NCBI GenBank assembly: GCA_031296215.1
Contig: JARLGE010000346.1
Coordinates: forward strand, 1 to 45,797
Reading direction: 5' to 3'
Length of the DNA: 45,797 nt
Origin: Occallatibacter sp.
GTDB taxonomy: Bacteria; Acidobacteriota; Terriglobia; Terriglobales; Acidobacteriaceae
Below are positions 2,544 to 44,135 of the stretch, piece by piece (position 1 is the first letter of the stretch; the number at the start of each line of letters is the position of its first letter). The notes under the pieces are model-generated. The model saw only the letters and a list, made by a program, of their open reading frames with translations. It had not been told where the DNA came from and did not search any database. A program made the position numbers and the translations under genes.

Positions 2544-2556
2544 GGAGGTTGGACAG

Positions 2557-2892: not shown

Positions 2893-3979
2893 GCAGCTGA
2901 TGAAAGGGAACGAAGCCATTGTGCATAGCGCCATCCTCGCCGGCTGCCGCGGCTTCTATGGCTATCCCATCACCCCGGCCAGCGAGATTACCGAGGCGGC
3001 GGCGCTCTACATGCCGCGGACCGGCGGCGTGTTTCTGCAGGCGGAGAGCGAAGTGGCGGCCATCAATATGCTCTACGGCGCGTCGTCCGCGGGCATTCGC
3101 TGCATGACGGCGTCCAGCGGTCCCGGCATCAGCCTGATGCAGGAAGGCATCAGCTACATGGCGGGCGCGGAACTGCCCTGCGTCATCGCCGACATCACGC
3201 GCGGCGGGCCGGGCCTGGGCAATCTCGGCTCGGAGCAGAGCGATTATCACCAGGTGGTGAAGGGGGGCGGCAACGGCAGTTACCACACCATTGTTCTTGC
3301 TCCCCACTCCGCGCAGGAGATGGCCGACCTGACAGCGCTGGCCTTTGAACTGGCTGACCGATATCGCAACCCCGTGGTAGTGATGGCGGATGGATTTGTC
3401 GGCCAGATGATGGAGCCGGTGGAGTTTCCCAACGCGGCAGTTGCCCCGCGCCTGCCCGATTGGGCTGTGGCCGGCACCGCGCAGTCGCGCGGAAATCTGA
3501 TCACCTCGCTGCACATGGACATCAACGACCTGGAAGCGCATCTTCGCAAACTCGAGGCCAAGTACCGCGAAGCCGAGCGCAAAGAGGCGCGCGCCGAGGA
3601 GTGGTTCACCGAGGGCGCGGAGATTGTGCTGGTGGGCTACGGCATCGTCGGGCGGATTCTCAAGGCCGTCACCGCCGAAGCCCGCGCGGCCGGCATCAAT
3701 GTGGGCCTGCTGCGGCCCATCACGCTTTATCCCTTCCCAACCGAGCACTTCCAGCGGCTGGCACGGCGCGCGCGCGTCTTTGCGGTGGTGGAGATGAGCA
3801 ACGGCCAGCTGATCGAGGATGTGCGCCTGGCGCTGAACGGGGCGCGACCCGTCGAGTTCCTGAACCGCATGGGCGGCAACGTTCCCTCCCACGACGAAGT
3901 GCTCGCCCTGGTGCGCACGCTGGCGCTCGATAACCTTTCGGTTATAAAGACGGAAGAGGAGCAGATGGCCCATGTCTAG
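2885..3979 (+). CDS. 2-oxoacid:ferredoxin oxidoreductase, alpha subunit (KorA/VorB type)
   Basis: The alpha subunit (364 residues) carries the pyrimidine-binding and transketolase C-terminal-like domains of an enzyme that oxidatively decarboxylates 2-oxoacids to acyl-CoA, reducing ferredoxin. The start is diagnostic for the family: [17 protein letters not shown] followed by [30 protein letters not shown] (about residues 77-96) is the conserved core. The C-terminal third, with [10 protein letters not shown] and a late RMGG, is the domain II/III region. ATG 2885 lies inside the end of the delta gene (8-bp overlap), and the 3' end overlaps the beta-gamma gene by 8 bp, so the three are translated together. 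Because a branched-chain aminotransferase follows, 3-methyl-2-oxobutanoate and its homologues are likely substrates, but 2-oxoglutarate or an aromatic oxoacid cannot be excluded. Confidence 0.93.
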
Positions 3980-9902: not shown

Positions 9903-12900
9903 CTAGGGCGCTGCGGTATATGTGGAGTCGGTGTACCTCACCTTGCCGTTGTAGTTGGTGTAGAGCCGGGCGTAGATGGTCTCTCCGTTGGTGGGAAGTT
10001 TGGTGGCCGTGGCGGACAGGGCTGTCGTGAAATGAGAGTTGTAGACGTCGTACGCGCCTTGGGTTGTGCCCAACCACAGCGAGTAGCCGCTGGCTCCGAC
10101 GGCGGCTGACCAGGTGAAGGTGACCCTGGCGCCCGACAGCACGCTGCCTGGCGTGGGCGAGATGAGAGCCGCCGGCGGCAGGTTGGCCGCGGTGAATTGG
10201 TAGTCGATCGACACCGCGACGCCGTTGTAAATGGTGTAGAGCCGGGCGTAGATGGTTCTGCCGTCGGTGGGCAGGCCGTAGGCCGTCAACGTGGTGGCAT
10301 TCGTCTCTCCCGAGTCATACAGGTCGTGCGTGCCCGCGCTTCCGGAGCCCAGCCACAACGAATAGCCGAGCACGTACCCGCTGGGGTACCCGGCCGGGCC
10401 TGTGGCGGCGGCCCAGGTGAAGGTCTGGTTAGGGCCGGTCAGCGTACTGTTTGGCGCGGGGCCGGTGAGCGTGGCCGGTTGCGACGCGGTGAATGTGTAG
10501 TCGTTCGACTGCGGCACGCCGTTGTAGTTGGTATAGAGGCGCACATAGATGGTTTCGCCGTTGGTGGGCAGGCCGGCAACCTTGAGGGAGGTAATCGTCT
10601 GCTGTCCCGAATGGTAGAGGTTGTGCGAACCCGCGCCGGTCGAGCCGATCCACAGCGAATAGCCGGTGGCGCTGGTCACGGTATTCCAGGAGAAGGTCAC
10701 GATGGGCCCTGGCAGCGTGGTGCCTGGCGCGGGCGCGGCGAGCACGGCCGGCACCGGCGACGCGGTAATGGTGGAGCCTGCTGTGGCCATCAGGTTCACG
10801 GTCGCGTTCAGGGCTATGGTGGCATGCAACTGGGTATTGAGGCCGGGTGTGGTGAAGCTGATGCCGGGGAAGCTGGCCGAGCCGGAGGAGAGACTCTGCG
10901 TGAGGGTTCCGCTCAGCGTGGCGCCGGTGTCAGAGAGGGTGACGGCGTTGCCATTTGCACCGCTGGCCGCCGCGCCTCTCTCGTAGAGGGTAACGGTCGG
11001 AGCCGGGGTGATCGCCTGGCCAAGAATCACGCTGGAAGGCAGAGGGGAAAAGCCCAGCGCGTAGTTGGTCTGCACGGCGCCGGAATCGACCGAGCCCGAG
11101 CAATGAGGATCGAAACCAAAGCCGCGCTGGTCGGTTGTTCCGACAGCGTTCACGGTGAGGCCGCCGCAGATGGAAGGATCGCCGGGCAAGGGCGTCTGGG
11201 TCTGCGTGGGTCCGCCGTAGCTGCCCAGAGGAGCAAGAGCAACGCCGGTGGTGACCTGGTTGCCGCCGTTGTTGGCCAAAGCTCCGGAAGGGTAACCGTC
11301 GGAGAGCGCTGGAGCGGTGTTGCCGGTGACGATGGTGTTCGACATGGGGTTTGAGCCGGAGGTGGTGGCGTCGTAGAGGCCGCCGCCCGTGTTGTCCGCG
11401 GTGTTCAGCGAGAGCGTGCTGCCGGTCAAGGTCAGCGGGCCAAAGTTGTAGATGCCGCCACCAATCCCCTGGCCCTGCGCCGAGACCGTGTTGCCGGAGA
11501 CGGTGCTGTTGATCACCGTCAGCGTGCCCCCGTAGCCGGTGATGCCGCCGCCCCAGGCCTGGTCCCCGCCGACTGCCGATGCCGTGTTGCCGGAGATGGT
11601 GCTATCGGTTACGGTCAGTGACCCGCCAAAGCCGAAGATGCCACCCCCGAGGCCAAGTGCCCCACCCCCACCGGTGTCCGCGGCGGTATTGCCGGAGATG
11701 GTGCTGCCGGCCACAGTCATGGTTCCGCCATAGTTGAAAAGACCGCCGCCGAAGGCATAGTAGCCGCTGGGAGCTGAATCCGCATTTCCAGAGACAGTGC
11801 AGCCGTTGATGGCGACATTTCCAGAGCTGCTGTAGACGCCGCCGGCAATTCCGAACCCGGCCGCGATGTATAAGCTGCGGTCAAGGCCATTGACGATGTT
11901 GAGATTGTTGAAGGATGCGGCGCCCTTGTTGACATAGAAATCAGATGACAGGTGATTGCCGCTGATGGTCACCAGGTTGGTCAGCGTGGCGCCCGTGCTT
12001 GTGGTCGGGCCGGTGATGGTTACGTTCACGTTGCCGATTGTTAGTACGCTGCCTGCGAGCACGATGGTGTTCTGCGCGACCGTGTTGGAAGAGTTGAAGA
12101 CGGTCGAGCTGAAGGTGATGCTGGCGGCGCCCGCACTGTTGGCAAAGTCCAGCGCATCGCGCAGGCTGCACGCGGTATCGACGGTGTTTGTACCGGGCGT
12201 GGGCTGCGGCGTGCAATTGCTCGAGGAGTCGGCGCCGAAATCGTCCGTCGCCGTGTTCACAACCAGGTTGGCGGAGAACTGCGCTGTCACGGTTTCGGCC
12301 GCATTCATGGTGATGCTGGTGCTGGCTGAAATGGAACTGGCCACTGCGTCAGGGCTCGACGACCAGCTCACGAAGGCATAGCCGGTGTTGGGCGTGGCGG
12401 TGATCGGCACCACGGTGCCTAGATTGTAGAGGCTGCCCGTGGCCGGAGTTACGGCGCCGCCAGCCGCTGGGCTGGCTGCTGTGGTGAGCTGTACCTGCGG
12501 AATGGTCACATTCAGCGTAAAGCTCTGGGTGGCGTTGGGCGGGATGCCGTTGTTGGCGGTGATGGTGATGGGGAACGTGCCCCCTGCGCCCGGCGTGCCC
12601 GACAGGGTTGCGGTTCCGTTGCCGTTATCGACCAAGCTGACGCCTGCGGGTAGAGCGCCTGTTTCGCTGATGGCTGCCGTGGGAAAGCCTGATGTCGTGA
12701 CGGTGAAGCTCCCGGCCACGAACTCAGTGAATGTGCTGTTGTTGCCGCTGGTAATGGCGGGCGCCTCGTCAACCGCGAACGTCAGAGACACGGTCTGGTT
12801 GTCGAAGGCGGCGGAGACCGATCCGCTGCCGGCGCTGGTGGGCGTGAGGGTTGGCGTGTCGGCTCCAGCGCCCGAAAAAGTCCCGGTGGTGAGCGCAGGG

Positions 12901-15647: not shown

Positions 15648-16062
15648 GACTAGGCCTCCATTGCGCTTTTTTGATGAGATCGGATTCATTGACCGCGGAA
15701 GCGAGCGGGAGCCTTGATGGGGGCTTACCCTGCACGCTTTCTCTAGTGGTTCGCCTTATTACTGTCGCTGTCTTTATTGCCGGGAAAGATTCTGGCCCTC
15801 CACGTTCGGCACATGAATGAAGAGGGGAGTTTAGCCTGAGCGTTCGACCAGGAAAAGAGAGCCAGCGCAATTTTCGCCTGCTGTTCTGACAAAGTCAACA
15901 TTACGTTTACCTAAAGTTGGAGGTAACTAAAAATCGTATGCAAAGTACACAGCGCCGGTTGTACTATTCTCAATTAGCATCGTTTCACAGGAAAGAATAC
16001 CCGCGACAGAGCTCGCAACGTAGCGGATATCATGGCTTGCTGCGTGACCCCGGAGGTAGTTT
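15648..16062. other. Divergent promoter region between the giant protein and Tat-protein genes
   Basis: These 415 bases separate two divergent genes and are more AT-rich than their surroundings. On the minus strand a -35-like TTGACT (15898-15893) lies 17 bases before a -10-like GAAAAT (15875-15870), which would give the giant gene a leader of about 215 bases. I found no good plus-strand promoter, only the GGAGG ribosome binding site near 16050. No gene is seen here. Confidence 0.3.
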
Positions 16063-24283: not shown

Positions 24284-27200
24284 CTAAGATGCTGCGATCT
24301 CCTTGGAGGTGAGCAGAAAGTAAACCACCGGCGTAACCACCAGGCTGAGAAGCATGGAAATGCTCAATCCTCCAATGACCGCGATAGCCAGGGGCTGAAG
24401 CATCTGCGAGCCCGCTCCGAGAGCAAAGGCCAGCGGCAGCATACCGCAGACGGCCGCAATGGCAGTCATGACGATGGGCCTCAGCCGGCGCTGCGCCGCA
24501 TGGAGCATTGCCTCCCTGGCCGAAGCCCCTTCGGCGCGGAACTTCTGGTCGGCATCGAGGAGCAGAATGCCGTTCTTGGCGACGATGCCTATGACCATGA
24601 TGAGACCCATGAAGGATGCTACGTTGAAGGTTGTCCGAGTGATCAGAAGAGCCAGAATCACACCGGAGATCGACAGAACCGACGAAGTAAGAATGGCGAT
24701 GGGCGCGGGGAAATTGCGGAACTCGGTTAGCAGGACTCCAAACACCAGCGCCAATGCCAAGAGCAAAACCCTAAACAGGTCACGGAAGGACTTCTGCTTC
24801 TCCTCATACGTGCCGCCGTATTCCACGCGCACCGAAGCGGGCAGATGCATTCCGGCGACCGTCTGCTGAACCTTGGTCATCGCGGTACCCAAATCCGACC
24901 CTTCCAGGCGCCCAGTCACCACCACGAGCCGTTGCAGATTCTCGCGCCGAATTTCGTTCTGCGGCGGCAACTCTTCGATGGTTGCCAGGGAAAACAGCGT
25001 GCTGGTGCGGCCGGCGCTGCTATTGAATACGGTGTTTTGAATCGCGTCGAGCGAAGCGCGGTGCTCGTCCCCGAGGCGGACGCGAATCGTATAAGGCCGG
25101 CCGTTGGATATGAGCGGATCGGTGGTTGTCACTCCGTCCAGAATGGACGTTGCGTCCAACGCGACTTCAGTCGGGGTGAAGCCCATGCGCGCGGCAACAA
25201 CCGGATCAACCTGGAAATTGGTTGCCGGGCCGCTCAGCGTATTGTCGATGCCGTTCTCCACATCCACCACGCCCTGGATCTTGCCAATGGCGTCGCCTAC
25301 CCTGGGCCCAAGCTGCTCGAGCAGCGCCGGATCGTCGGCATAAATCTTGATCTGAATCGGCTCTGGCGCATTGGAGAGGTCGCCGATCATATCCTGAAGG
25401 ACCTGGATAAACTCGACGTCCAACTCCGGCTCTGAGGATTTAATCTGGCGGCGCACATCTTTCATCACTTCGTCGATCCCACGGCCTCGCCTGGCCTTCA
25501 GCTTTACCGTGAAGTCGCCCGTGTTGGCCTCGGTTACTGCCGCCAGCCCCATCTGCAAGCCGGTGCGCCGCGAAGTGATCTCCACTTCCGGCGCAGAGCG
25601 AAGGATGCGCTCCACGTGCTCCAGAACCCGATTTGTCTCGCTCAAGGAACTTCCGGCCGGCATGATGTAGTCGAGAATGAAACCGCCTTCATCCATCTCG
25701 GGAAGGAGGTCGGAACCAAGCGCTTTGTAACCGGCCCACGTGCCCACGACCAGCAGCAGGCACGCCACCCCAAGACCCAATGGCCTGCTCAGCGACCAGT
25801 CCAAAAGTCTGCGGTGAATCTGAATTACACGGTTCATCCATTTGCCTGCCTCGTGGCCATGACGTCCATCATGGTTGCGCCGCTCCCTCAGCAGCACCAG
25901 GCTCAACCCCGGCGTCCATGTGAGCGCCAGCACCAGTGACGTTAGAAGGGCCGCGGTCATGGTGATTGCCAGCGCCCTGAAGAAGCTGCCCGTCACGCCG
26001 CTCACCGAGACCAGGGGGAGAAAGACGACCACGGGCGTAATCGTGGAGCCGATCAGAGGCGTCGTAATCTCGCTCAACGCCCTTCGCACTGCACCAACGC
26101 GAGGTTCGCCCGCATCGCGGTGCAGCACTATGTTCTCAACGACAACGATGGCGTCGTCGATGACCAGCCCGATTGCTGCAGCCAGTCCGCCCAGCGTCAT
26201 CAGGTTGAAGCTCTGGCCGATCAGCCAAAGAACCAGCACCGTAACCGCAATGGTCACCGGGATCACCAACCCCGCGATCAATGAGGAGGTCCAGTCGCGC
26301 AGGAACAGGAAGAGAATGACACAGGCCAGAATGAGGCCAATGAAGATCGCGTCGCGCACACTGGAGATGCTGTCGCGCACCAGTTGCGACTGATCGTAGA
26401 ATGGTTCGAGTCTTACGCCCGGCGGCAGCTTGCGCTCTAAGTCTTTCACTTGCGCTGCTACCGCGTCGGCCACAGCGACGGTGTTGCTCGAGGGCTGCCG
26501 CGCAATGTTCAACAACACCGCGGCTTTCCCGTTGGCGGTCACTGTGGTGTAGACGGGCATGGTGGCCCGCTCCACCGTGGCCACATCTGCCAATCGGACG
26601 GGCGCGCCGGCCGGCGTGCTCTTCACCACAAGTTGCCGCAACTGATCAGCGTCATGAACCTGCGCGCCTACCAGGCCCAGAATCAGTTGATGATTCGCTT
26701 CATACAGGCCGGGAGAGTCAACGATGTTCGAAGCCTGAATTGCGTTCACGAGGTCCGGAATAGTCACGCTCGCGTTTTGCAACAGCGTGAGGTTGGGCAC
26801 TACGTGAAACTCCGGTACCTGTCCGCCCTGGACCGTGACCGTGCTCACGCCAGCGACGCGATTCAAAGGCGGTTTCAGATCGTAGGTGGCAATCTCCCAT
26901 AGCCGGGTCTGCGGCACAGTGTCCGACGTGAGGCTATAACCAAGAATTGGAAACGTGGCAAAGGTCAGGCGATTGGTTGTCACCTTCGCGGTCGAGGGAA
27001 GCGTCTGCTCCACCTTTGCCAGCGCGGCGTCCACCAGCTGAAGTTGGTGGAACATATCCACGTTCCAGTCGAAGAAAAGACTGATCTCGGCTGAACCGCG
27101 ACTGGTGGTGGAGCGTACGGTGAGCAGTCCCGGCACGGAGTTGACCGCGTCTTCAATCGGCTTGGTGATGGTGACCTGCATCTGCTCCACAGGCATCACG

Positions 27201-27397
27201 CCGTTGTCCACGCCGATCACGACGCGAGGAAAGTTTGTGTCGGGAAAGACGGAAATCGGCACCCGAAAGGCGAAGTAAGCTCCGGCCACCGTGAGAACGG
27301 CGGCAAAGAAGAAGATGGTGCGGGTTGACTGGCCCAGCCAGAAGGGCTTGTGACTGGCGCCGAGGCCGAAAGCAGGGTTGGGCTGCTCGTCGTGCAT
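24284..27397 (-). CDS. RND efflux pump, inner-membrane transporter subunit (AcrB/CzcA superfamily)
   Basis: This proton-driven trimeric pump subunit has 1037 residues, the normal length. Twelve transmembrane helices are placed as usual: one near the N-terminus, five around residues 345-500, one near 550, and five in the last 180. The proton-relay acidic pair in TM4 is present as GLVIDDAIVVVEN (Asp 414 and 415). Two large periplasmic loops hold the porter and docking domains (for example FPDTNFPRVVIGVDNG, and DLLPEMDEGGFILDYIMPAG in the second half). The EMDEGG segment resembles the metal and hydrophobe-type branches. The ATG overlaps the stop of the adaptor gene by one base (TGATG). It is the last gene of a TolC-adaptor-pump operon. 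Substrate cannot be told; a metal-type CzcA is possible but the usual methionine pathway is not evident. Confidence 0.92.
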   Translation of the reverse strand: MHDEQPNPAFGLGASHKPFWLGQSTRTIFFFAAVLTVAGAYFAFRVPISVFPDTNFPRVVIGVDNGVMPVEQMQVTITKPIEDAVNSVPGLLTVRSTTSRGSAEISLFFDWNVDMFHQLQLVDAALAKVEQTLPSTAKVTTNRLTFATFPILGYSLTSDTVPQTRLWEIATYDLKPPLNRVAGVSTVTVQGGQVPEFHVVPNLTLLQNASVTIPDLVNAIQASNIVDSPGLYEANHQLILGLVGAQVHDADQLRQLVVKSTPAGAPVRLADVATVERATMPVYTTVTANGKAAVLLNIARQPSSNTVAVADAVAAQVKDLERKLPPGVRLEPFYDQSQLVRDSISSVRDAIFIGLILACVILFLFLRDWTSSLIAGLVIPVTIAVTVLVLWLIGQSFNLMTLGGLAAAIGLVIDDAIVVVENIVLHRDAGEPRVGAVRRALSEITTPLIGSTITPVVVFLPLVSVSGVTGSFFRALAITMTAALLTSLVLALTWTPGLSLVLLRERRNHDGRHGHEAGKWMNRVIQIHRRLLDWSLSRPLGLGVACLLLVVGTWAGYKALGSDLLPEMDEGGFILDYIMPAGSSLSETNRVLEHVERILRSAPEVEITSRRTGLQMGLAAVTEANTGDFTVKLKARRGRGIDEVMKDVRRQIKSSEPELDVEFIQVLQDMIGDLSNAPEPIQIKIYADDPALLEQLGPRVGDAIGKIQGVVDVENGIDNTLSGPATNFQVDPVVAARMGFTPTEVALDATSILDGVTTTDPLISNGRPYTIRVRLGDEHRASLDAIQNTVFNSSAGRTSTLFSLATIEELPPQNEIRRENLQRLVVVTGRLEGSDLGTAMTKVQQTVAGMHLPASVRVEYGGTYEEKQKSFRDLFRVLLLALALVFGVLLTEFRNFPAPIAILTSSVLSISGVILALLITRTTFNVASFMGLIMVIGIVAKNGILLLDADQKFRAEGASAREAMLHAAQRRLRPIVMTAIAAVCGMLPLAFALGAGSQMLQPLAIAVIGGLSISMLLSLVVTPVVYFLLTSKEIAAS

Positions 27398-28722
27398 CAG
27401 CCGTTCCCCCCGTCTTTCGCGGCCGCGGGCGCCTTGTCGTCCTCGGCCGGCGCACCCACCTTCACCTTTGTCCCATCATCCAGCCCATACGCTCCGCCCG
27501 TGACGACCAGATCGCCCGGCGCCAGCCCACTGGCCACCTGGATGTCGTCCCCGTCGAGAATGCCGACAACTACCGGCTTGCGGTGCGCGGCTCCGTCGCT
27601 TCCCACCACCATCACAAACTTGCTTCCGTCCTGAGCGGTCAAGATCGCGGAAGCGGGGACCTTCCAGGCTTGCGCCACGGTCCTTCCGGTAATCGACACC
27701 TTCACGGGCGTCCCCACCTTGAGCGACCCGGCCTTGTTGCCAATCTTGAGCCATATCTCAACGGTTGTACTGCCTGGGTCAAGCGCCGGACTGATCAGCT
27801 CAACCTTTGCCGCGACAGGATCGGCAACGCCCGGCACCTGGACCGACGCGTCATCGCCCACCTTCATCCGCTGCGCCACACTCTCGGCAATGTGCGTCTT
27901 GGCCAGCAGACTGGAAGTGTCCATCACGGTGATCAAGGGCGCACCCGCAGCCGCGGTCTCGCCGGCAAACAGGGGACGGTCGGTGACGACACCATCGATC
28001 GGGCTGCGAATCTCGGAGTAGCTCTGTTGCGCCTGAGCGCCCTTGTACTTGCCTTCCGCCGATGTCAACTGTCCCTCGGCAGCCTTGAGCGCCGCGGCAC
28101 GGCTTACACTGCGCACCGACTCCAAATGCTTTGTTGCGCTGTCGAATGCGGCCTGTGCCTGCACCAGCGCGGCATTGGCAGTGTCCAGATCGCGGCCCGG
28201 AATCGCGCCCTCGGCGAAAAGCTGCTTCCGGCTCTTGACGATGCTAAGGTTCAGATCCAAATTGGCCTTCGCCAGCGCCACATCCAGCTCGGCCTTTTGT
28301 GTATCTTCCGGAACCTGCGCCTTGGTCGCGGTAGCATACGCGGCCTCCGCCGCCATGTAGGAACCCTTGTTGTCGAGCGCCGCTGCGGCCAGGTCGCTGT
28401 TCTCCAGCGTGGCCAGCAGTTCGCCTTCCTTCACCCTCGCCCCGCGCTGCACGTAGAACTTGCGTACCGGCGCGCCGATCTTGGGCGCGATCGCGGCCTG
28501 CGCCAAGGGAGCGAGAACCGCGTCGGCGGTGAAGTGCTCGGTGACCGGCCCTTGCTCTGGATGCTCGGCTTGCACAGTCACCTGTGTCTCCGGAGGCGCT
28601 TCCTTCTTGCAGCCCGGCAAAGGAACTATCGTTACCGCCAGTGCCGCCAGCAGAATTCTTCGCGTCTTCAACAAAGCGATTCCTCGTTGTTGCGCATTCA
28701 TGCTTGTTTTCATGCTCGTCAT
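27397..28722 (-). CDS. RND efflux periplasmic adaptor (membrane fusion) lipoprotein
   Basis: The 441-residue adaptor bridges the pump and the outer-membrane channel. It has an N-terminal lipoprotein signal (LAALAVTIVPLPGC, lipobox LPGC), then the biotinyl-lipoyl half motif (APKIGAPVRKFYVQRGARVKEGELLATLE), an alpha-helical hairpin (about 100-210, rich in Ala/Lys/Glu with coiled-coil character), the second lipoyl half (IRSPIDGVVTDRPLFAGETAAAGAPLITV), a beta-barrel domain and a proximal domain (LTAQDGSKFVMVVGSDG). It lies 4 bp after the TolC-like gene and overlaps the pump by one base. A Met four or seven codons later could also be the start. The last 20 residues are a Lys/Ala-rich tail. Confidence 0.92.
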   Translation of the reverse strand: MTSMKTSMNAQQRGIALLKTRRILLAALAVTIVPLPGCKKEAPPETQVTVQAEHPEQGPVTEHFTADAVLAPLAQAAIAPKIGAPVRKFYVQRGARVKEGELLATLENSDLAAAALDNKGSYMAAEAAYATATKAQVPEDTQKAELDVALAKANLDLNLSIVKSRKQLFAEGAIPGRDLDTANAALVQAQAAFDSATKHLESVRSVSRAAALKAAEGQLTSAEGKYKGAQAQQSYSEIRSPIDGVVTDRPLFAGETAAAGAPLITVMDTSSLLAKTHIAESVAQRMKVGDDASVQVPGVADPVAAKVELISPALDPGSTTVEIWLKIGNKAGSLKVGTPVKVSITGRTVAQAWKVPASAILTAQDGSKFVMVVGSDGAAHRKPVVVGILDGDDIQVASGLAPGDLVVTGGAYGLDDGTKVKVGAPAEDDKAPAAAKDGGNG

Positions 28723-28726
28723 TCGC

Positions 28727-30133
28727 TCACATCGTTCCCGTCAGCGATTCCAGATCGGCCCGCGCTGTCTGGTACCGCACTCGCCCGTCCTCTCGCGCAT
28801 TCTCGCCGCTCACACAAGCGCTCTCGGCGTCCACCACTTCCAGCACGGTGGCCTCTCCCTCGGTGTAGCGCAGCCTGGTCAAGCGAAGGCTTTCGGCCGC
28901 CGTCGCGACGCTTGCATCCAGCGAAGCAAGCTGGTCCAGAGCCGTCGCAGCTTCGGAATAAGCCTCATCCAACCGCGCAATCAGCCGCCTTTGCGTCGCG
29001 GTCAAGGCTATCCGCGCCGCATCGCGCCGTATCTCGCTCTGCTTCACCTTGTGTTCGGTGGCAAGCCAATCCCACACCGGAATATCAACAGTTACACTCG
29101 CCGAATAGCCCAGATTGCGCACATGATCGGGGCCGTTCACGGCAAACTGCGGAGCGTCGATCCCATAAGTGACATTCAGCCCCAGGTCGGGCAAATAGGC
29201 TGCCCGCGCGGCCTGTACATCGGCGTTGCTCACGCCCAATGCCGCCAGCGCACTCTTCAACTCAGGATTGTTTTTCGCCGCGGCCTCCTCGACGTCGCTG
29301 CGCGAGGGAAGCTGGGCCGCGTCCTTCGGGCTCTCCAGCGAAAACGGTGTACGCGGATCGGGAAACAGCAGCACCGCGAGTTCCAGGCGTGCCTTTTCCG
29401 CGGTTACCTTGGCGTCGGCCCACTCGCGGTCTCGCTGCTGCTCAACCAGTTGCGCCTTCACAACGTCGGCGTGCGCCGCCTCGCGCGCTTGTTCGCGCTG
29501 GGTGGTAAGCCTTGTGAAGTCGGCCGACTCAGAGTGGGCCCGGTCCGCCACCGCAGCTTTCTGGTCAGCGGCAACCGACAAATAGAACAGACTAGTCACA
29601 GCCGAGACCAGCCCGCGTCGCGCAATCTCCAGCTCGGCGGCCGACCATGCCGCTTCCGCATCCGCTCGCCGAACGGCCGCCCACCCGCCCAGTCCAAATG
29701 TTTCATTGACGACTCCCTGGCTGGCATACTCCCGCACCGCGTTATTCGCGATGAATCTTGGAGAAGGCTGCGCTCCCGCGCCTTGTCCTGCCTGGTTTTC
29801 AAGTCCGTTGGCCTGGGTATAGAGTGCCTGATTGTGATAGTTGACGCTGGGCAACAGGCCAGCCCGCGCAATCGAGCGGTCAAGAGCCGAGGCTCTGCTA
29901 TCCGCCAGGGAAGATGCATACGCCGGCTCATTGGCTTCCGCGCGCCGAATCGCCTCTTCCAGAGTGATGGTGATGGGCCTGGCCGGGACAGACGGGTCCT
30001 GCACGGCCGCCTCAAGCGCCATCTGTCCATTGGCGGACGCGATGGCCTTTGCCAATAGAAACACACCGAAGATTGCGCCCGACAGGAGCCTGCCACGGCG
30101 CCGTCTTCCACCCCGCCAGATGTAACGCAGCAT
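28727..30133 (-). CDS. TolC-family outer-membrane efflux protein
   Basis: This protein (468 residues from ATG 30133; a GTG at 30139 is an alternative) has the paired repeats of outer-membrane efflux channels. The signal sequence spans about residues 10-36 (LLSGAIFGVFLLAKAIASANG). The first half has LEEAIRRAEANEPAYASSLA and LLPSVNYHNQALYTQ; the second has VEEAAAKNNPELKSALAAL, AYLPDLGLNVTYGID and PVWDWLATEHKVKQSE. The long amphipathic helices form the periplasmic tunnel. No clear ribosome binding site is visible. It heads the operon with the adaptor and pump on the minus strand, so the complete tripartite efflux system is encoded here. Confidence 0.9.
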   Translation of the reverse strand: MLRYIWRGGRRRRGRLLSGAIFGVFLLAKAIASANGQMALEAAVQDPSVPARPITITLEEAIRRAEANEPAYASSLADSRASALDRSIARAGLLPSVNYHNQALYTQANGLENQAGQGAGAQPSPRFIANNAVREYASQGVVNETFGLGGWAAVRRADAEAAWSAAELEIARRGLVSAVTSLFYLSVAADQKAAVADRAHSESADFTRLTTQREQAREAAHADVVKAQLVEQQRDREWADAKVTAEKARLELAVLLFPDPRTPFSLESPKDAAQLPSRSDVEEAAAKNNPELKSALAALGVSNADVQAARAAYLPDLGLNVTYGIDAPQFAVNGPDHVRNLGYSASVTVDIPVWDWLATEHKVKQSEIRRDAARIALTATQRRLIARLDEAYSEAATALDQLASLDASVATAAESLRLTRLRYTEGEATVLEVVDAESACVSGENAREDGRVRYQTARADLESLTGTM

Positions 30134-30139
30134 AGTCAC

Positions 30140-36803: not shown

Positions 36804-37478
36804 ATGCCCTTGCCCGAATACGAAAAGATCGCACGGGCGGCCCGAGACTTCGGGTCGCCTGTGCCTACGAACCTGAGTCTCATTGAGGAGAGCGAAGCCA
36901 CCAGAGAGGTGGCCGCGTTGTATGACCACTTCCGCACTCACTTCGGCCGGCCCGATGTGCCCCTAATCCTGAAGTGTTTTGCGACTCATCCACCTCTATT
37001 GCGGCACATGATGGATCTGGCAGAGGACCTAATCTTCGCCGATGGCTCGCTGGGCAGGAAGCACAAGGAGATGATTGCCACGCTTGTCTCCACGCTGAAC
37101 TCATGCGCTTACTGTGCAGACAGTCACGGCTTCTTCCTTCGCGTGCATGGAGGGAGTTCACAGGTGGTTGCTGCCATTCAAGCCGATGAACTTGGCTCGC
37201 CCGAATTCACCCCGAGCGAACAGGCGCTTCTTGGCTTTGTGCGCAAGGTCAACGTGAGCTCGAACGAGATTACCAGCGAAGATGTGGACCGGATGCTTCA
37301 GTCCGGCTGGAACGGACTGCAGGTTGCCGAGGCTGTCCACGTTACCGCTCTGTTCGCCACATTCAACCGCGTGGTCAACGCGTTTGGGCTCGGGTCGCAG
37401 GGGCTGCTTGCACTTTATGATGGCGACACACAGAGCTCTCTCAACGAGAACACGAGCGCAGAAAGGACTGACCGATGA
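36804..37478 (+). CDS. AhpD-like (peroxidase-related, carboxymuconolactone decarboxylase family) protein, copy 3
   Basis: The 224-residue protein is of a different subgroup from copies 1 and 2 but has the same active site: Cys101-x2-Cys104 and His108 in LNSCAYCADSHGFF, preceded by LGRKHKEMIATLVST. Residues about 25-95 form a helical N-terminal extension (ATREVAALYDHFRTHFGRPDVPLI). The second half has QLLGF-like ALLGFVRKVN and a C-terminal helix FATFNRVVNAFG typical of peroxidase-related enzymes. It lies 12 bp after the receptor gene and overlaps the next (broken) AhpD-like gene in an ATGA arrangement. It is therefore part of the same transcription unit as the receptor. Confidence 0.88.
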   Translation: MPLPEYEKIARAARDFGSPVPTNLSLIEESEATREVAALYDHFRTHFGRPDVPLILKCFATHPPLLRHMMDLAEDLIFADGSLGRKHKEMIATLVSTLNSCAYCADSHGFFLRVHGGSSQVVAAIQADELGSPEFTPSEQALLGFVRKVNVSSNEITSEDVDRMLQSGWNGLQVAEAVHVTALFATFNRVVNAFGLGSQGLLALYDGDTQSSLNENTSAERTDR

Positions 37479-37708: not shown

Positions 37709-37869
37709 CCTTTACAGAGATGTGGCATTTGGGGCCATCCCCCACACCGGTACGCCTTCCTCCACTGCCAACCCTCTTCCACGGCGGCGCACTCTTCTCT
37801 GGCACTTGCTTTTCAAAGCCAATTGGATTCTAATTTCGCTCGGTGGAGACACCGCGAAAGCCCGTCGCC

Positions 37870-40179
37870 ATGTGCTCTGCGCAATGGCCCGCACCAGCCG
37901 TTCAAACGGCTTTGGCGCTTATTGGGTTCAGTGCTGTCCTCGGACAGATTGTCCTCATGCGGGAGCTGATGGTTGTTTTCAACGGCAACGAGATGTCGCT
38001 GGGCATCCTCTTGGCGACGTGGCTCTTTTGGACCGCTGCCGGCAGCAGCCTCGGCAGCTTCTTGCGACTGGGCAAGCGCAATCCGCGCAACACGGCCGCC
38101 GCACTCGAATGTCTTCTGGCCGCCTGCCTGCCGCCGACGATAGGTGCGTTGCGCGTCTCCAAATCCTATTTGCAGACTGTACCCGGTGAACTTGTTGGGC
38201 CGCTGCCGATGCTGCTCTCGTCCCTGGTTTGTCTGTGCATGTTTTGCGCGATCTCAGGAGCACTTTTCGTGGTTGCGGCGCGGATGGTCGAATTCGAGTG
38301 CAAGGCGTCGTTGCGCATCGCCGCCAGTTCCGCTTACCTCTTTGAGGCCGTGGGCTCCGCTCTGGGTGGGATTATGGCCAGCACTGTGTTCCTGCGCTTT
38401 CTCGAGGCTTTCCAGATCGCGGCCATCGTAGCCCTGTGCAACCTGTGCATGGCGGCAACTTTGTGGCTGCGCATGAGCCGCAAGAGAATGGTTGCGCTCG
38501 CCGGGTTCGCGGCGCTTATTGCGATTCCACTGCTTCTCTTGGTTGCGTCGTGGCTGAACAACCTGTCACAGGCGAGGTTGTGGCGAGGCTTTCATCTGCT
38601 TGAATCGCGCGATACGATTTACGGCAACCTGGCGGTGACCGAAACCGGAACGCTTCGCAGCATCTATGAAAATGGCGCAATGCTGGCCAATGTCCCGGAC
38701 GAAAACGCCGCCGAAGAGGAGGTTCACTACTCCTTGCTGGAGCATCCGGCGCCGCGCCATGTGCTTCTGATCGGCGGCGGGGTAAACGGGAGTATCGCTC
38801 AGGCGCTGAAGCACCCCAGCATCGAGCGAATCGACTATGTTGAACTGGATCCCGCGCTCATCGATATGGCGCGCCGGTTCTTCCCTGAGCAGTCTGCTTT
38901 GAATTCGGATTCGCGTGTACACATTCACTACGCCGATGGCAGGCGCTATCTGAAGGCGGCCGGCGGCGCGTTCGACGTAATCATTCTCGACGTGCCGGAC
39001 CCGCAGACCGCGCAGTTGAATCGGTTTTACACCGAGGAGTTTTTCAGCTCCGCTCGCGACCACCTTGCGCCGGGTGGCCTGCTTGCACTGGAACTTCGTT
39101 CGTCCGAGGAGACCATGAGTCCGGACCTCAGGGAGTTTCTGCGCTGCATTCGGCACACTCTGAACGGAGTGTTCCCCAATGTCGCGGTGATTCCCGGCGA
39201 AACGATCCATCTCTTTGGCGCTATGCGGCCCGATGTCCTGACCAGCGCCCCCGGCACTTTGATGGCGCGATTGCGCGAGCGGCACATTCACACGGAGTAT
39301 GTCCGGGAATACTTCATCCCTTACCGCATGACGCCCGATCGCATGGAGCAGGTGCGGGAGCAATTGCAGCCGCTCGCGTCCACGCCGGTGAATCGCGATT
39401 TCGAACCGATCGCCTATTACTTCGACGTCGTGCTTTGGGGTACACAGTTCAAGTCAGGCTATGCAAACTGGTTCCGCGCCGCGGCACACATACCATTCCG
39501 CACTGTCCTCTTCGCGGTGCTGGTTGTCCTGTCGCTCGCCGCTGCGCTGCCGATGTTCTGGCCAACGCGCGGAAGCCGTGCCCGCCCCGCTGCGGCGCAT
39601 TGCACTGCGGCGACGGGCTTCACTCTCATGGCATTGCAAATCTGCCTTCTGCTCGCGTTTCAGTCAATCTACGGGTACGTCTACCACCAACTTGCCATCC
39701 TCATCGGCCTGAGCATGGCCGGCATTGCACTGGGAAGCTGGCTGGGCATCCGGCGGATTGAGTCGGGCGGACGCTCGCCCTGCCTCCGGATGGCAGCAAC
39801 CCAGTTTCTGCTCGCCCTTTCCGCTCCTGCGCTTCTGTTTGTGGTCAGCCTGCTGGCGAGAATCTCCGGAATCGCAACCATGTGGATCGCGGCGCAGTTG
39901 GTCTTCCCCGCATTGGCCGCTCTGTCGGGAATCCTGGGTGGCTATCAGTTTCCCGTTGCGGCCGATATCTTTCTTCATGACACCAAGGGCAAAGCAGGAT
40001 GCGGGGCACTCTATGCCATCGACCTGCTGGGTGGATGCGTGGGCGCTCTGGTGCTGAGCAGCTATATGATCCCGGTGTTCGGATTCTGGAAAACCGCCTG
40101 GCTATGCATGGCAATCAATCTTGTGCCGGCCCTGGCCGCCATGCAGGCCAGCCTGCCAATGAGAAGCGTTCGGACGTAA
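37870..40179 (+). CDS. Membrane-embedded spermidine-synthase-like protein
   Basis: This protein (769 residues from ATG 37870; a GTG at 37843 is in frame) has an N-terminal membrane domain with about six helices (ALIGFSAVLGQIVLMRELMV; FNGNEMSLGILLATWLFWTAAGSSLG). A soluble class I methyltransferase-like domain (about 240-500) follows, and then a second membrane half of about seven helices (about 530-765). The soluble part shows the spermidine synthase pattern: LLIGGGVNGSIAQAL (about 299-313), VELDPALIDMA, ADGRRYL and LDVPDPQTAQLNRFYTEEFF, with an Asp-Pro-rich catalytic loop. Such fusions are known in bacteria and archaea, but polyamine synthesis by them is mostly untested. It is convergent with the MEMO-AMMECR1 gene, 156 bp away. 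Neither start has a good ribosome binding site. Confidence 0.82.
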   Translation: MCSAQWPAPAVQTALALIGFSAVLGQIVLMRELMVVFNGNEMSLGILLATWLFWTAAGSSLGSFLRLGKRNPRNTAAALECLLAACLPPTIGALRVSKSYLQTVPGELVGPLPMLLSSLVCLCMFCAISGALFVVAARMVEFECKASLRIAASSAYLFEAVGSALGGIMASTVFLRFLEAFQIAAIVALCNLCMAATLWLRMSRKRMVALAGFAALIAIPLLLLVASWLNNLSQARLWRGFHLLESRDTIYGNLAVTETGTLRSIYENGAMLANVPDENAAEEEVHYSLLEHPAPRHVLLIGGGVNGSIAQALKHPSIERIDYVELDPALIDMARRFFPEQSALNSDSRVHIHYADGRRYLKAAGGAFDVIILDVPDPQTAQLNRFYTEEFFSSARDHLAPGGLLALELRSSEETMSPDLREFLRCIRHTLNGVFPNVAVIPGETIHLFGAMRPDVLTSAPGTLMARLRERHIHTEYVREYFIPYRMTPDRMEQVREQLQPLASTPVNRDFEPIAYYFDVVLWGTQFKSGYANWFRAAAHIPFRTVLFAVLVVLSLAAALPMFWPTRGSRARPAAAHCTAATGFTLMALQICLLLAFQSIYGYVYHQLAILIGLSMAGIALGSWLGIRRIESGGRSPCLRMAATQFLLALSAPALLFVVSLLARISGIATMWIAAQLVFPALAALSGILGGYQFPVAADIFLHDTKGKAGCGALYAIDLLGGCVGALVLSSYMIPVFGFWKTAWLCMAINLVPALAAMQASLPMRSVRT

Positions 40180-40335: not shown

Positions 40336-41850
40336 CTAAGGCCTGTGCTCGCCGAAGACCACCGCTGTGAATGCGAATATATCGGTGCTCTCATCCTTCC
40401 AGCAATCGCGGGGCATGCCGGCCTTGACGCAGGTCTGTTCCAAGAACGTCAGCCTGTCCCACTTTTGCTCCACCGGCACCTGGGGAAGCAGGAGGCCTTC
40501 ATAGTCTCCATTCTTCATCAGCAGCCCGTGCTCGCCGACCTTGATGTCGTGCGTGTCAAGGACGCGGCGGAGGGGCGAGAGAACCGAGACCTCGTATGCG
40601 AGCTGCGGCAGTTCGGCAGCCGCGACCGGCTGGAATCGCGGATCGCGCAACGCCGCCAGCGTGGCTGTGTCGCGCACCGTGAGGTAGAGAGGCTTCACTG
40701 CCGAGGTGTAGCCGATGCACCCGCGCAACGCTCCCGACTTGGTGATGGTGACAAAAGCTCCGCGTTCCTCGTTGAGACGCACATCTGAAACCGCGTCCGG
40801 ACTATACGATTCATTCTGCCCCACCGCGCGCTCCACCGACTTGCGGGCCAGAGCGAGCAGGTCGCTCTTCTCCTGCTGGCTGAGCGAGAACGGCTCTTGC
40901 TCCGCCGCTCCGTGCGGGGCTCTGACAAACAGATCCGCGCTGTATCCAACCACGCGCGAGCGGTCCCCGGAAGTATCGCCCGAATTGGCGTACTTGAGTA
41001 CGACGGCCTGGTTCGCGCCCATGCGCTCGGCCGCAATCATCGCGGCCACAATGGGCGCGCCTCCGCAGGCCTCCCAGGTTCTAGTCTCGAAGTTGCGCGA
41101 CATGCTGAGGTAGTCCCAGGCCTCGAGCGCATTCAGCGTTTTGTGGTCGATCGTCTCGGCGTCGTTGTAGGGATGATAGTGAGACAGATCGGAACTGGCC
41201 AGCACCAGCGTGTCGCCGCCGTGGATCATCTTCGCCAGGGCCACGCCCAGCGCGCGGCTGCTTTCATAGCTCTGGTCTCCCATGACGATGGGAACGATCT
41301 CAAAACTGCCCAGAACCCTCTGCAGCCACGGCAGTTCGACCTCGATTGCATGCTCGGCGCCTGCCGGCGTGGGATCGTGCCCCTTGGTGGAGAGCCGGAT
41401 GCTGGAATTCATCTTCGTCAATTGCCGCGCAAACTCTTTGTCGACCGGAATTGTGCCCAGCGGCGTTGCATAGGCATCGCCTTCATACACAGAGGTGAAA
41501 TCGAAGGCCTCGAAGTGCGAGGGCGCAATCACCACCACGCGAGAGTACCTCTTCCCTTTTAACGCAGCGTAGGTGAATGCAGCCACAGGACCGGAGTACG
41601 GATAGCCTGCGTGTGGCGCAACCGCGGCGATGATTGGTCCTGCGATGGTCTGCGCAGGCACATGCGCCAGCATGTCGTCGATCATTGCCGAAAGCGCCAC
41701 CGGGTCGGCTGGATAGAAGCTTCCCGCGACTCTGCTCTGCCTCACCTTTTGTTGATTGACGGCGCAAGCCTGCTGCAAAGGGGCGATGACCAGTATCGCG
41801 GCAATTTGAACCGTTACCCAAAGCAATCTCGAATCCACTATGAGATGCAT
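40336..41850 (-). CDS. AmmeMemoRadiSam system fusion protein: MEMO (system B) plus AMMECR1 (system A) domains
   Basis: This 504-residue protein begins with a hydrophobic signal (WVTVQIAAILVIAPLQQAC, about 11-29; the lipobox is not canonical), which suggests export or membrane anchoring. The MEMO domain (about 40-325) has metal-ligand-type residues His80 (VAPHAGYPYSG), His112 (APSHFEAFDF) and Cys262 (EACGGAPI). The two histidines are spaced 32 residues apart as in human MEMO1. The AMMECR1 domain (about 330-500) includes the signature LRGCIGYT (about 375-382). ATG 41850 is chosen with AGGAG upstream; the longer frame overlaps the radical SAM gene. The pair of domains, normally separate in bacteria and archaea, is fused. 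It is the last gene of a DUF362-radical SAM operon. Biochemical role is unknown in bacteria. Confidence 0.9.
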   Translation of the reverse strand: MHLIVDSRLLWVTVQIAAILVIAPLQQACAVNQQKVRQSRVAGSFYPADPVALSAMIDDMLAHVPAQTIAGPIIAAVAPHAGYPYSGPVAAFTYAALKGKRYSRVVVIAPSHFEAFDFTSVYEGDAYATPLGTIPVDKEFARQLTKMNSSIRLSTKGHDPTPAGAEHAIEVELPWLQRVLGSFEIVPIVMGDQSYESSRALGVALAKMIHGGDTLVLASSDLSHYHPYNDAETIDHKTLNALEAWDYLSMSRNFETRTWEACGGAPIVAAMIAAERMGANQAVVLKYANSGDTSGDRSRVVGYSADLFVRAPHGAAEQEPFSLSQQEKSDLLALARKSVERAVGQNESYSPDAVSDVRLNEERGAFVTITKSGALRGCIGYTSAVKPLYLTVRDTATLAALRDPRFQPVAAAELPQLAYEVSVLSPLRRVLDTHDIKVGEHGLLMKNGDYEGLLLPQVPVEQKWDRLTFLEQTCVKAGMPRDCWKDESTDIFAFTAVVFGEHRP

Positions 41851-41870
41851 TGCAAATCTCCTCTGTTCCG

Positions 41871-43085
41871 CTATGCATGCCAGACACCCGGGATCGGATG
41901 CCGGCAAAAGGGGCAACAACTGTTGCGAATCAGCATCTTGCTCGCTGTAAACCCGACCCGTTCCACCAAAAGGCGCTTGCACTGGGGGCAGTACGTATTT
42001 TGCGCGGGGTGCCCAGGCACATTCCCGATGTAGACGTAGTGCAGCCCCTCGGCATCCGCAATCGCCTTGGCGCGTTCCAGGGTCTCGACCGGCGTGATGG
42101 GCAGGTTTTTCAGCAGATATTCCGGGTGAAACTGCGTAAAATGCAGGGGCACATCCGCCCCCAGGTTGGCTTTGACCCATTGCGCAAGGCCGCGGATTTC
42201 CGCTTCGCCGTCATTGAGCGTGGGTACCGTCAGGTAAACAATCTCCGTCCACTTGCCCATTTTCTTGAGCCTGACCAGCGAATCGAGCACCGGCTTCAAT
42301 TCACCGTTGACCACCTTCTGGTAATACGATTCCGTGAACGCCTTCAGGTCGATCTTGACCGCGTCCATCTTCCCGTAAGCGGCCTTCAGCGGCTCTTCCT
42401 GGATGTATCCGTTGGATACGACAATGCTGCGGATGCCGGCTGCGTGTCCGGCATCCGCCGTGTCCATCAGGAATTCGCTGAAGACGACCGGCTCGCTATA
42501 GGTGTAGGCAATCGTCGGACAGTCATACTGCTTCGCCAGTTCGACAACCCTTTGCGGCGGAGCGTAATCGGCGGGAATCTGCTCCGGACGCGACTGGGAG
42601 ATGTCCCAGTTCTGACAGAATTTGCAATTCACGTTGCATCCGGCCGTCGCCAGGGAGAAAGCGACGGTTCCGGGCAGGTAGTGGAACAGCGGCTTCTTCT
42701 CGATTGGATCCACGTGCGCCGCGCAAACCCGCGAATGCACCAGTGTGTAGTAGGTTCCGCCACGATTCTCGCGCACGCCGCAGTAGCCGCGTTCGCGGTC
42801 TCCCACCTTGCATTCGCGCGGACACAGCTTGCACTTGATTTTTCGATTCTCAAGCTTTTCGTAGAACCTTGCTTCGGCAACGAATCGCGCGTCATCCGGG
42901 CTCTGTTGCCCGGTCCACGCCGCGGCTGCGGCAGCCGGCTCGGCCACCTCGCCCATCCCCAGGGCTGCTCCCGACGCCAGGGCGCATTTCAGAAACGATC
43001 GGCGATCGAACGAACAGAACGACCGGCTTCGCTCGCCGGGAAAACCGAGACTCATGGCCCCTTGCCCATTCAACTCGCGGTACAT
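41871..43085 (-). CDS. AmmeMemoRadiSam system radical SAM enzyme with a Tat signal
   Basis: The 404-residue enzyme has the radical SAM motif Cx3Cx2C at Cys150, Cys154 and Cys157 (AGCNVNCKFCQNWDIS), which holds a [4Fe-4S] cluster that cleaves S-adenosylmethionine. It also has the family's N-terminal CKLCPRECKVG...GYCGVREN and the C-terminal Cys-rich CPQCKRLL and CCPFCRHPIPGVWH parts. A twin-arginine signal, DRRSFLKCALASGAALG, lies at about 27-43, so a folded iron-sulfur enzyme may be sent across the membrane. Start at 43085 is supported by GGGAGG six bases upstream; a second start at 43055 keeps the signal too. It is 27 bp after the DUF362 gene and 20 bp before the MEMO-AMMECR1 gene. Its substrate is unknown, though the trio is conserved. 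Confidence 0.9.
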   Translation of the reverse strand: MYRELNGQGAMSLGFPGERSRSFCSFDRRSFLKCALASGAALGMGEVAEPAAAAAAWTGQQSPDDARFVAEARFYEKLENRKIKCKLCPRECKVGDRERGYCGVRENRGGTYYTLVHSRVCAAHVDPIEKKPLFHYLPGTVAFSLATAGCNVNCKFCQNWDISQSRPEQIPADYAPPQRVVELAKQYDCPTIAYTYSEPVVFSEFLMDTADAGHAAGIRSIVVSNGYIQEEPLKAAYGKMDAVKIDLKAFTESYYQKVVNGELKPVLDSLVRLKKMGKWTEIVYLTVPTLNDGEAEIRGLAQWVKANLGADVPLHFTQFHPEYLLKNLPITPVETLERAKAIADAEGLHYVYIGNVPGHPAQNTYCPQCKRLLVERVGFTASKMLIRNSCCPFCRHPIPGVWHA

Positions 43086-43112
43086 GTTCAACCTCCCAGT
43101 CACGCGCAGTGT

Positions 43113-44135
43113 CTATATCTCGATCGTCTTGATCCTCGCGGGATCATTTGTGCCCACCAGGTGCTGCGCATCGGCGGCAGTCGCAATGTAGCGTGGCGCT
43201 CTGCCGTCGGCTTCCAGCGTCTTCAATCCATGCTCGGCGCGCTTGCGCTCGATGATTTGCCAGCCGGTCGAGTCCAGCGCAACGGGATCTTCGGAAACGA
43301 TCAGGGCATTGGCTTGCCAACTGTGTTCCGGCTTATAGGCCGGTCCACCTTCGTACATGGCCGTGGTCGCGTCGCAGATCGTCAATCGCATTCTTGTCCT
43401 GATCTCCGGCAGCATGTTCAAGTCCGCAATGTACGGATCGCAGCCGTTGGGGTGGTACTTGTTGGGGTTATGAATGACTCCATACATGTTCTTCAAGGAA
43501 ATGGTTACACCGGCGCCATCATGGTCTTTGAGTACCGGCACATTGATCAGGACGTTCGAACGTTGGGTGAGGATCTTCGAAACGCGGCTTCCAACACTGC
43601 CATAAGTCGCCAGCTCCTGTTCGTAATCGACTTGATCGGTGCCAAAGCATTGCACCCGATTCCCACCCATGGCCACGTGGAATCCGGCGCGTTCCAGTTC
43701 GTCGCTGCTGCGATCCCACACCACGATGTCAGCAGCCCCGATGCCGGCTTCCTGCAACCGCTCGCAAATGGCCTCGACCAACTGCGGGTTGGTGGAAATC
43801 CCGCGCCCCCCCAGGGTGTTTACCTTCAGCCCCACCCTTTCGCCGGGCCGGACCAGCTTCCTCCAGGCCTCGAGGGGACGATCCCGGTCGAACAATGCCT
43901 GCACGGCACGATCCAGCAGCGCCAGCATCCGCCGCGAATCCACACTGGAGCCTGGTGCAGAACCGGCGCCGCGAAGCAGGGCGTCGCGGGCAATCACGAC
44001 CCTGGATTCTGCCCGCAAAGTCCCTTTTTCTTCCGCGGCAATCAGCCCGGTTGCTCCTCTCGTAGGCAGAAGCGCGGCCCCGGCGAGAGTCGTCCTGAGA
44101 AAGTCCCGCCGGCTGGTGCTGTGCAATGTGTTCAT
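43113..44135 (-). CDS. Tat-exported DUF362 protein
   Basis: The 340-residue protein has a Tat signal, STSRRDFLRTTLAGAALLP (about 7-25). It is followed by the DUF362 core: ERVGLKVNTLGGRGISTNP, ADIVVWDRSSDELERAGFH and VLINVPVLKDHDGAGVTISLKNMYGVIHNP, then MLPEIRTRMRLTICDATTAMYEGGP. The core fold is related to proteins with iron-sulfur clusters, but no CxxCxxC ferredoxin segment is visible here. It heads the operon with the radical SAM and MEMO-AMMECR1 genes. Its leader can form GGGG-AAGA-CCCC just before the ATG, overlapping the purine-rich ribosome binding region. The biochemical role of DUF362 is unknown; its place in the operon suggests it works with the radical SAM enzyme. Confidence 0.88.
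   Translation of the reverse strand: MNTLHSTSRRDFLRTTLAGAALLPTRGATGLIAAEEKGTLRAESRVVIARDALLRGAGSAPGSSVDSRRMLALLDRAVQALFDRDRPLEAWRKLVRPGERVGLKVNTLGGRGISTNPQLVEAICERLQEAGIGAADIVVWDRSSDELERAGFHVAMGGNRVQCFGTDQVDYEQELATYGSVGSRVSKILTQRSNVLINVPVLKDHDGAGVTISLKNMYGVIHNPNKYHPNGCDPYIADLNMLPEIRTRMRLTICDATTAMYEGGPAYKPEHSWQANALIVSEDPVALDSTGWQIIERKRAEHGLKTLEADGRAPRYIATAADAQHLVGTNDPARIKTIEI

Follow-up and report, generated by a model that had tools for sequence, protein, structure and literature searches.

AmmeMemoRadiSam proteins (NCBIfam TIGR04335, TIGR04336 and TIGR04337) occur from archaea to humans (MEMO1, AMMECR1) without an agreed molecular function, and the radical SAM enzyme (rSAM) of this three-part system is of a kind normally confined to the cell interior. 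Four other described systems are relevant here: NapGH of periplasmic nitrate reductase; polyamine aminopropyltransferases of the membrane-fused types (PRK03612, NF037959); the LarA lactate/malate racemase, whose DUF2088 shares Pfam clan CL0471 with DUF362 (PMC11770544); and human MEMO1, a metal-site protein (PMC11081632). We analysed a stretch of 45,797 nucleotides, hereafter the window, from Occallatibacter sp. (GCA_031296215.1, contig JARLGE010000346.1, positions 1 to 45,797), which encodes an AmmeMemoRadiSam system whose parts bear export-type signals. The relevant features are as follows.

43113..44135 (-), DUF362 protein (340 aa), predicted LarA-like fold, N-terminal twin-arginine signal, MNTLHSTSRRDFLR
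44094..44114 (-), SRRDFLR twin-arginine motif of DUF362
41871..43085 (-), radical SAM enzyme of the AmmeMemoRadiSam family (404 aa from the ATG at 43085)
42987..43007 (-), DRRSFLK twin-arginine motif of the radical SAM enzyme
42615..42638 (-), CxxxCxxC [4Fe-4S]/SAM motif
40336..41850 (-), MEMO-AMMECR1 fusion with Sec-type signal (504 aa, start ATG 41850), MHLIVDSRLLWVTVQIAAILVIAPLQQACA
41761..41850 (-), N-terminal hydrophobic signal of MEMO-AMMECR1
37843..40179 (+), SPDS, membrane protein with seven helices before and six or seven after a spermidine-synthase-like domain, convergent to the operon
38593..39486 (+), SPDS soluble domain (residues 251-548), predicted outside

Profile searches placed the three core families above their curated cut-offs: TIGR04337 at 383 bits (cut-off 220), TIGR04336 at 263.7 (26) and TIGR04335 at 177.6 (99). 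The rSAM also matched PF04055 (61 versus 29.5 bits) and DUF362 matched PF04015 (94.0 versus 24). A preliminary description, which had noted the twin-arginine signals, the hydrophobic signal of the MEMO-AMMECR1 fusion and an intact Cx3Cx2C at residues 150-157, is confirmed on each point. Its residue numbering fits the ATG at 43085, which by eye has GGGAGG just upstream; a longer ORF begins at a GTG at 43103 (410 aa, Cys 156/160/163). The AF2 model of DUF362 (pLDDT 90.2) found its best fold match in the LarA family (Z 16.3, rmsd 3.0, 204 aligned; Z 13.9-16.3 overall), although DUF362 is smaller, shares 11-17% identity over the aligned part and has an export-type signal. Window MEMO aligns with human MEMO1 (E 1e-19), and among 114 rows the residues aligned with metal ligands H49 and C244 are conserved in 113 of 113 and 112 of 112 rows with a letter there. 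At ligand H81, the conserved His of the window aligns one residue earlier. Unlike MEMO1, the window protein has an export-type signal and is fused to AMMECR1.

To ask whether the signals exceed chance, we collected relatives and their neighbouring genes. The first 80 loci are the best 80 of 266 relatives, fetched by similarity to the window rSAM; they lean to Acidobacteriota, and other phyla are only those reachable from these loci. The window's own copy, 13 rows with identical cores (230 to 217), rSAM matches under 250 bits and one Tat-class row cut by a contig edge (142 to 141) were dropped before counting. The score cut between classes (425) was chosen after seeing two groups, but the profile leaves out the first 70 residues and does not see the signal; a further profile (A4) used in the genome searches does include it. 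A fixed rule found the twin-arginine signal in 130 of 141 rSAMs of this class, 1 of 75 others and 5% of residue shuffles, and the one exception has the signal with MEMO and SPDS beside it. A bare xRRx-hydrophobic motif discriminated less well (136 of 141 versus 13 of 74). Of the 62 uncut rSAMs nearest the window (640 bits or more) 58 passed; of the other four, three lack a signal and one has RR with a short stretch. In 770 pairs chosen by core identity, differences in the signal segment fell on codon positions 1/2/3 as 4607/3437/8653, as in translated DNA, although segments were picked by having the RR. The segments are kept across three phyla, whereas canonical paralogues lack them. Thus, although alternative start codons exist in the window, misread starts or chance RR motifs in an ordinary cytoplasmic operon are very unlikely. 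Two results are weaker. Pfam TAT_signal scored 20.4 for the window rSAM, below its cut-off of 22.7, so we speak of a Tat-type signal and do not call export shown. DUF362 signals have short hydrophobic segments: 59 of 80 passed a slightly looser rule, 13 more have an RR motif by eye, 7 have no signal and 1 is a broken frame. TatC is encoded in the window's genome (E 4e-69).

MEMO carries a signal in 108 of 111 proteins from Tat-class loci, compared with 0 of 13 from canonical loci and 0 of 7 other single MEMOs. Of six fused MEMO away from an rSAM, five have a signal and one does not. Not all parts always carry their own signal, as seven loci keep an RR at the rSAM N-terminus but have DUF362 without any signal and no MEMO beside them. 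Nine genomes from which both loci were taken also hold a canonical paralogue without signal. Relative to the canonical system, the locus differs in the export-type signals on rSAM and MEMO-AMMECR1, the fusion of MEMO with AMMECR1, and the addition of DUF362, SPDS and often a NapHG-like protein. Tat substrates are folded and cofactor-loaded inside (PMC3712460), which would allow the rSAM to act in the cytoplasm, for example charging a partner once, and leave as a spent or structural complex. We consider this improbable, as MEMO-AMMECR1 with a Sec-type signal would not be folded inside, and the haem motif and electron carrier described below point to redox work outside.

One clade of Tat-class rSAMs has a CxxCH c-haem motif between the signal and the rSAM core. 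The motif occurs in 12 of 142 Tat-class cores, all 12 with the Tat signal, and arose by one change on the tree, although it could bind zinc instead of haem. None of the 12 loci has DUF362 beside it. The motif lies on the same side of the signal as the rSAM core, and in the rSAM signals the positive charges, judged by eye, precede the hydrophobic stretch, the arrangement for N-in/C-out. Both observations disfavour the alternative raised in the preliminary description, in which the signals are uncleaved anchors and the active sites face the cytoplasm; this would also leave a conserved RR unexplained. That alternative remains a remote possibility, as in many DUF362 signals an Arg follows the short hydrophobic stretch.

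The window's genome encodes, on another contig, a protein matching NapH (residues 9-167) and NapG (327-539) in one chain, with an internal RR segment invariant in 11 of 11 aligned fusions. This segment would put four Fe-S clusters outside. The arrangement resembles NapGH in that a membrane NapH module is followed by a twin-arginine segment and NapG-like clusters, but scores are well below the curated cut-offs (89.1 versus 234 for NapH and 89.2 versus 269 for NapG). A fusion-like ORF is present in 16 Tat-class loci, 12 of them upstream on the same strand, and matches occur in 62 of 77 Tat-rSAM genomes versus 22 of 220 others, with 11 of the 62 matching only from about residue 227 on. Two haem-clade genomes also have a match. 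The protein was not found in 15 of the 77, using a single-protein query that may miss distant copies. NapGH-type electrons from quinol may be too weak to reduce an rSAM cluster, and we regard this electron path as about as likely as not.

SPDS, the convergent next gene, matches PF01564 at 98 bits and was modelled by AF2 with pLDDT 89.6. The predicted fold of its soluble domain resembles spermidine synthase (3anx, TM-score 0.73 by target length). G311-G313, E334 (34 of 35, probably the acidic ribose-binding residue) and D365 are near-invariant, but the residue aligned with the presumed catalytic Asp (position 383) is Asp in only 7 of 35, the window's own copy among them. The six or seven further helices after the domain also distinguish SPDS from the membrane-fused aminopropyltransferases. 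Seven helices precede the domain, and loops beyond the flanking helices average K+R 2.9 / D+E 0.1 and 3.4 / 0.6 over 64 orthologues, predicting that the domain faces outward. SPDS is found in 52 of the first 80 relatives' loci. In 297 Acidobacteriota genomes it occurs in 73 of 77 with this rSAM and 7 of 220 without (Fisher p 8e-56, not corrected for kinship); because only the best 3 to 6 candidates per genome were scored, absences are soft.

All 11 conserved Cys columns of the rSAM are 100% in both Tat and canonical classes; the three Cys of CxxxCxxC account for 100% of letters in 143 Tat-class and 68 canonical sequences. Two near-invariant positions differ, E204 (canonical mostly D) and K250 (canonical N). 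These substitutions, along with the accompanying NapHG-like carriers and haem motif, leave room for an exported protein that is no longer a SAM enzyme but serves in Fe-S or structural electron transfer, a proposal that would solve the problem of SAM supply. However, the CxxxCxxC and D-L-K columns are as conserved as in the canonical class, which a mere electron carrier need not maintain, and a partner with a nucleoside-binding fold accompanies the enzyme. We therefore consider this proposal unlikely.

Collectively, these data suggest an extracytoplasmic form of the AmmeMemoRadiSam system in soil acidobacteria and two other bacterial phyla, and we place the probability that it is exported and active outside at roughly 0.7 in the absence of experimental evidence for export. 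In the working we infer, rSAM and DUF362 fold in the cytoplasm, where the rSAM takes up its Fe-S cluster, and leave by Tat, while MEMO-AMMECR1 leaves by Sec. Outside, electrons would reach the [4Fe-4S] cluster from the quinol pool through the NapH-NapG-like fusion or, in one clade, through a c-type haem built into the rSAM's own N-terminus. The rSAM would then cleave SAM and work with MEMO, AMMECR1 and LarA-fold DUF362 on an envelope substrate, any particular identity for which is doubtful at present. That the outward domain of SPDS supplies or processes the SAM-derived nucleoside is less likely than not. SAM is not known to be available in the periplasm. Radical SAM chemistry outside the cytoplasm, with its own trans-membrane electron supply and SAM delivery or recycling, is an even proposition; bacteria would then keep a usable SAM pool at the outer face of the inner membrane. 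The preliminary description, which offered the operon as a candidate undescribed periplasmic modification system, is supported, although that the system modifies something is conjectural; it missed SPDS, the NapHG-like carrier and the c-haem clade. No report of such a system was found in the literature searches made, with nothing relevant in PMC12423673 or PMC2964644. An exported version restricts possible substrates to envelope or extracellular molecules, names further partners that make the function testable by genetics, and challenges the assumption that radical SAM enzymes are cytoplasmic because SAM and low-potential electrons are. It also offers a naturally fused cytochrome-type radical SAM protein.

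Eight rSAMs without signal, from the window's own clade, show no DUF362 or SPDS beside them. This co-loss rests on one or two events (Tat changes twice on the tree), leaving a paired test without power, and in one locus only 282 bp upstream and in another only 1.2 kb downstream were seen; the eight serve only as an illustration. A polyferredoxin pattern also hit three canonical loci in short ORFs of 116-130 aa, which we take as chance. Lipoprotein anchoring of MEMO is not general, as a lipobox-like motif occurs in 11 of 118 MEMO of Tat-class loci, in some probably outside the signal.

The minus strand holds three genes in order, encoding a DUF362 protein, a radical SAM enzyme (rSAM) and a MEMO-AMMECR1 fusion, with a convergent neighbor on the plus strand:

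44135..43113, minus strand, DUF362 protein
43085..41871, minus strand, radical SAM enzyme
41850..40336, minus strand, MEMO-AMMECR1 fusion
37843..40179, plus strand, convergent neighbor with a spermine synthase domain (SPDS)

Family assignment is clear, as TIGR04337, TIGR04336 and TIGR04335 all score above curated cut-offs, and DUF362 and the spermine synthase domain score above Pfam gathering scores. The twin-arginine and hydrophobic N-termini noted in the preliminary description are as described there, and the residue numbers it gave for the radical SAM Cx3Cx2C motif (150-157) fit the ATG at 43085, which by eye has a good ribosome-binding site.

To assess whether these features exceed chance, we examined related loci (designated L). 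Of the first 80, some of which are cut by contig ends, 59 hold a DUF362 match, 71 MEMO, 68 AMMECR1 and 52 SPDS. A profile built without the first 70 residues splits the rSAMs into two groups. After removal of identical cores 217 remained, of which 142 are of the window's class, 69 are canonical and 6 are more distant. A fixed rule, requiring an RR motif followed by an uncharged hydrophobic stretch of at least 11, passes 130 of 141 class members not cut by a contig edge, 1 of 75 others and 5% of 7050 shuffled N-termini. The single other, L140, has the signal and has MEMO and SPDS as neighbors. Of the 11 misses, three (L057, L133, L186) have the RR with a shorter stretch. The remaining eight, all members of the window's own clade, have none and show neither DUF362 nor SPDS beside them, although for one (L055) only 282 bp upstream and for another (L062) only 1.2 kb downstream could be examined. 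Three of their eight MEMO signals are also gone, suggesting a possible return to the cytoplasm. Within the flanks examined (2.5 kb for DUF362 and MEMO, 4 kb for SPDS, often less), 86 of 142 class members have DUF362, 117 MEMO and 74 SPDS beside them, whereas of the 75 others 0 have DUF362, 14 have MEMO and 1 (L140) has SPDS. The signal segment of close kin changes mostly at third codon positions (4607/3437/8653 for positions 1/2/3 over 770 pairs).

A Sec-type signal was found on 108 of 111 MEMO proteins in loci of this class, excluding the eight signal-less loci, where the figure is 5 of 8. The signal is absent from 13 of 13 MEMO in canonical loci and from 7 of 7 single MEMO elsewhere, while five of six fused MEMO located away from an rSAM (L161-L165, L167) have it. 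Residues aligned with the human MEMO1 iron ligands H49 and C244 are conserved in 113 of 113 and 112 of 112, respectively. For ligand H81 the conserved histidine aligns one residue off, and we therefore do not claim the full site.

The fourth partner, SPDS, lies next to the operon. In four Calditrichota genomes (L162-L165) it stands beside a MEMO-AMMECR1 fusion at a locus separate from DUF362-rSAM. The structural model (pLDDT 89.6) has seven long helices before a spermidine-synthase-like domain and six after it, the last long enough for two. Simple hydropathy on single sequences gives 5 to 8 helices before the domain, so the count rests on the model. Averaged over 64 orthologues, the loops beyond the two helices flanking the domain are K/R-rich with almost no acids (2.9/0.1 and 3.4/0.6), and the alternate loops that could be told apart have few positive charges. 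By the positive-inside rule, the domain is predicted to be outside. The nucleoside-binding glycines and Glu334 are kept, but the aligned catalytic Asp is not. Among 297 Acidobacteriota genomes, SPDS (283 bits or more) is in 73 of 77 that have this rSAM (473 bits or more) and in 7 of 220 that do not, with thresholds placed at gaps observed in the score lists and a Fisher test that does not correct for kinship.

A polyferredoxin-like ORF lies near the rSAM in 16 loci of the class bearing the twin-arginine (Tat) signal, 12 times upstream on the same strand; one is cut by the contig end. The copy in the window's genome matches NapH at its N-terminus and NapG at its C-terminus, both below equivalog cut-offs. 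Between the two lies an internal segment, L-x-RR with a hydrophobic stretch, whose RR is invariant in 11 of 11 aligned, and 16 Cys follow, enough for four clusters. The window's genome has the fusion on another contig, away from the window operon (C331, at 64% identity), followed by a small lipoprotein-like gene and a second twin-arginine DUF362 (the three together at 1465-4641). In L057, a DUF6599 domain is part of the polyferredoxin ORF itself. Matches to the fusion are in 62 of 77 Tat-rSAM genomes and 22 of 220 others, although 11 of the 62 match only from about residue 227 on and are thus not shown to be full fusions. An additional gene family lies close to the Tat-class rSAM in 13 loci, and its tested member (L226:23-1375) is a DUF4340 protein.

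Five Acidobacteriota loci and seven distinct loci from the other two phylum searches have a CxxCH c-haem motif between the signal and the rSAM core. These represent 12 distinct cores, all passing the Tat rule and none with DUF362 beside it, and form one clade of 11 rows on the tree with a single change. Haem c is probably attached only outside the cytoplasm, so if these proteins bind haem, the core next to the motif is outside. Binding of zinc remains possible.

The DUF362 model (pLDDT 90.2) matches LarA-family racemases (Z 13.9-16.3) far above the next rows (Z about 5 and less). The DUF362 signal is weaker than that of the rSAM, with 59 of 80 passing a looser rule (stretch of 10) after six cut sequences were left out. 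Thirteen more show an RR motif by eye, seven have no signal (these are also loci without MEMO nearby) and one is a broken frame. The seven loci whose DUF362 has no signal (L126, L131, L133, L135, L136, L141, L144) have an RR-bearing rSAM and SPDS but no MEMO nearby.

Within the rSAM core, all 11 conserved Cys columns and the D-L-K strand are as conserved in 143 Tat-class as in 68 canonical sequences. Other near-invariant positions differ between the classes, notably E204 (canonical mostly D) and K250 (canonical N), in 410-aa numbering. In a tree of 147 rSAM rows (quick method, SH-aLRT), the Tat class apart from L140 is one branch of 85 rows at 95. Tat changes twice, haem once, DUF362 9 times and SPDS 14 times, although absences of DUF362 and SPDS are overstated because loci with short flanks are included.

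By score, the system is a member of the AmmeMemoRadiSam families, and it is its location signals and partners that set it apart, with export itself inferred from sequence rather than shown by experiment. No description of an exported form was evident in the searches made of open-licence papers. Memo-Ammecr1 systems are mentioned in PMC7159879. NapH-like extracytosolic electron systems are described in PMC8238504, the main text of which contains neither "radical SAM" nor "DUF362".

Elsewhere in the window, a peroxidase-related AhpD-type gene (36804-37478, plus strand) lies between a large outer membrane beta-barrel gene and SPDS. The minus strand also carries an RND efflux operon (24284-30139) comprising an AcrB-type pump, a membrane fusion protein and an outer membrane channel, and a gene (9903-15689) for a 1928-aa protein with FG-GAP and divergent InlB-repeat matches.
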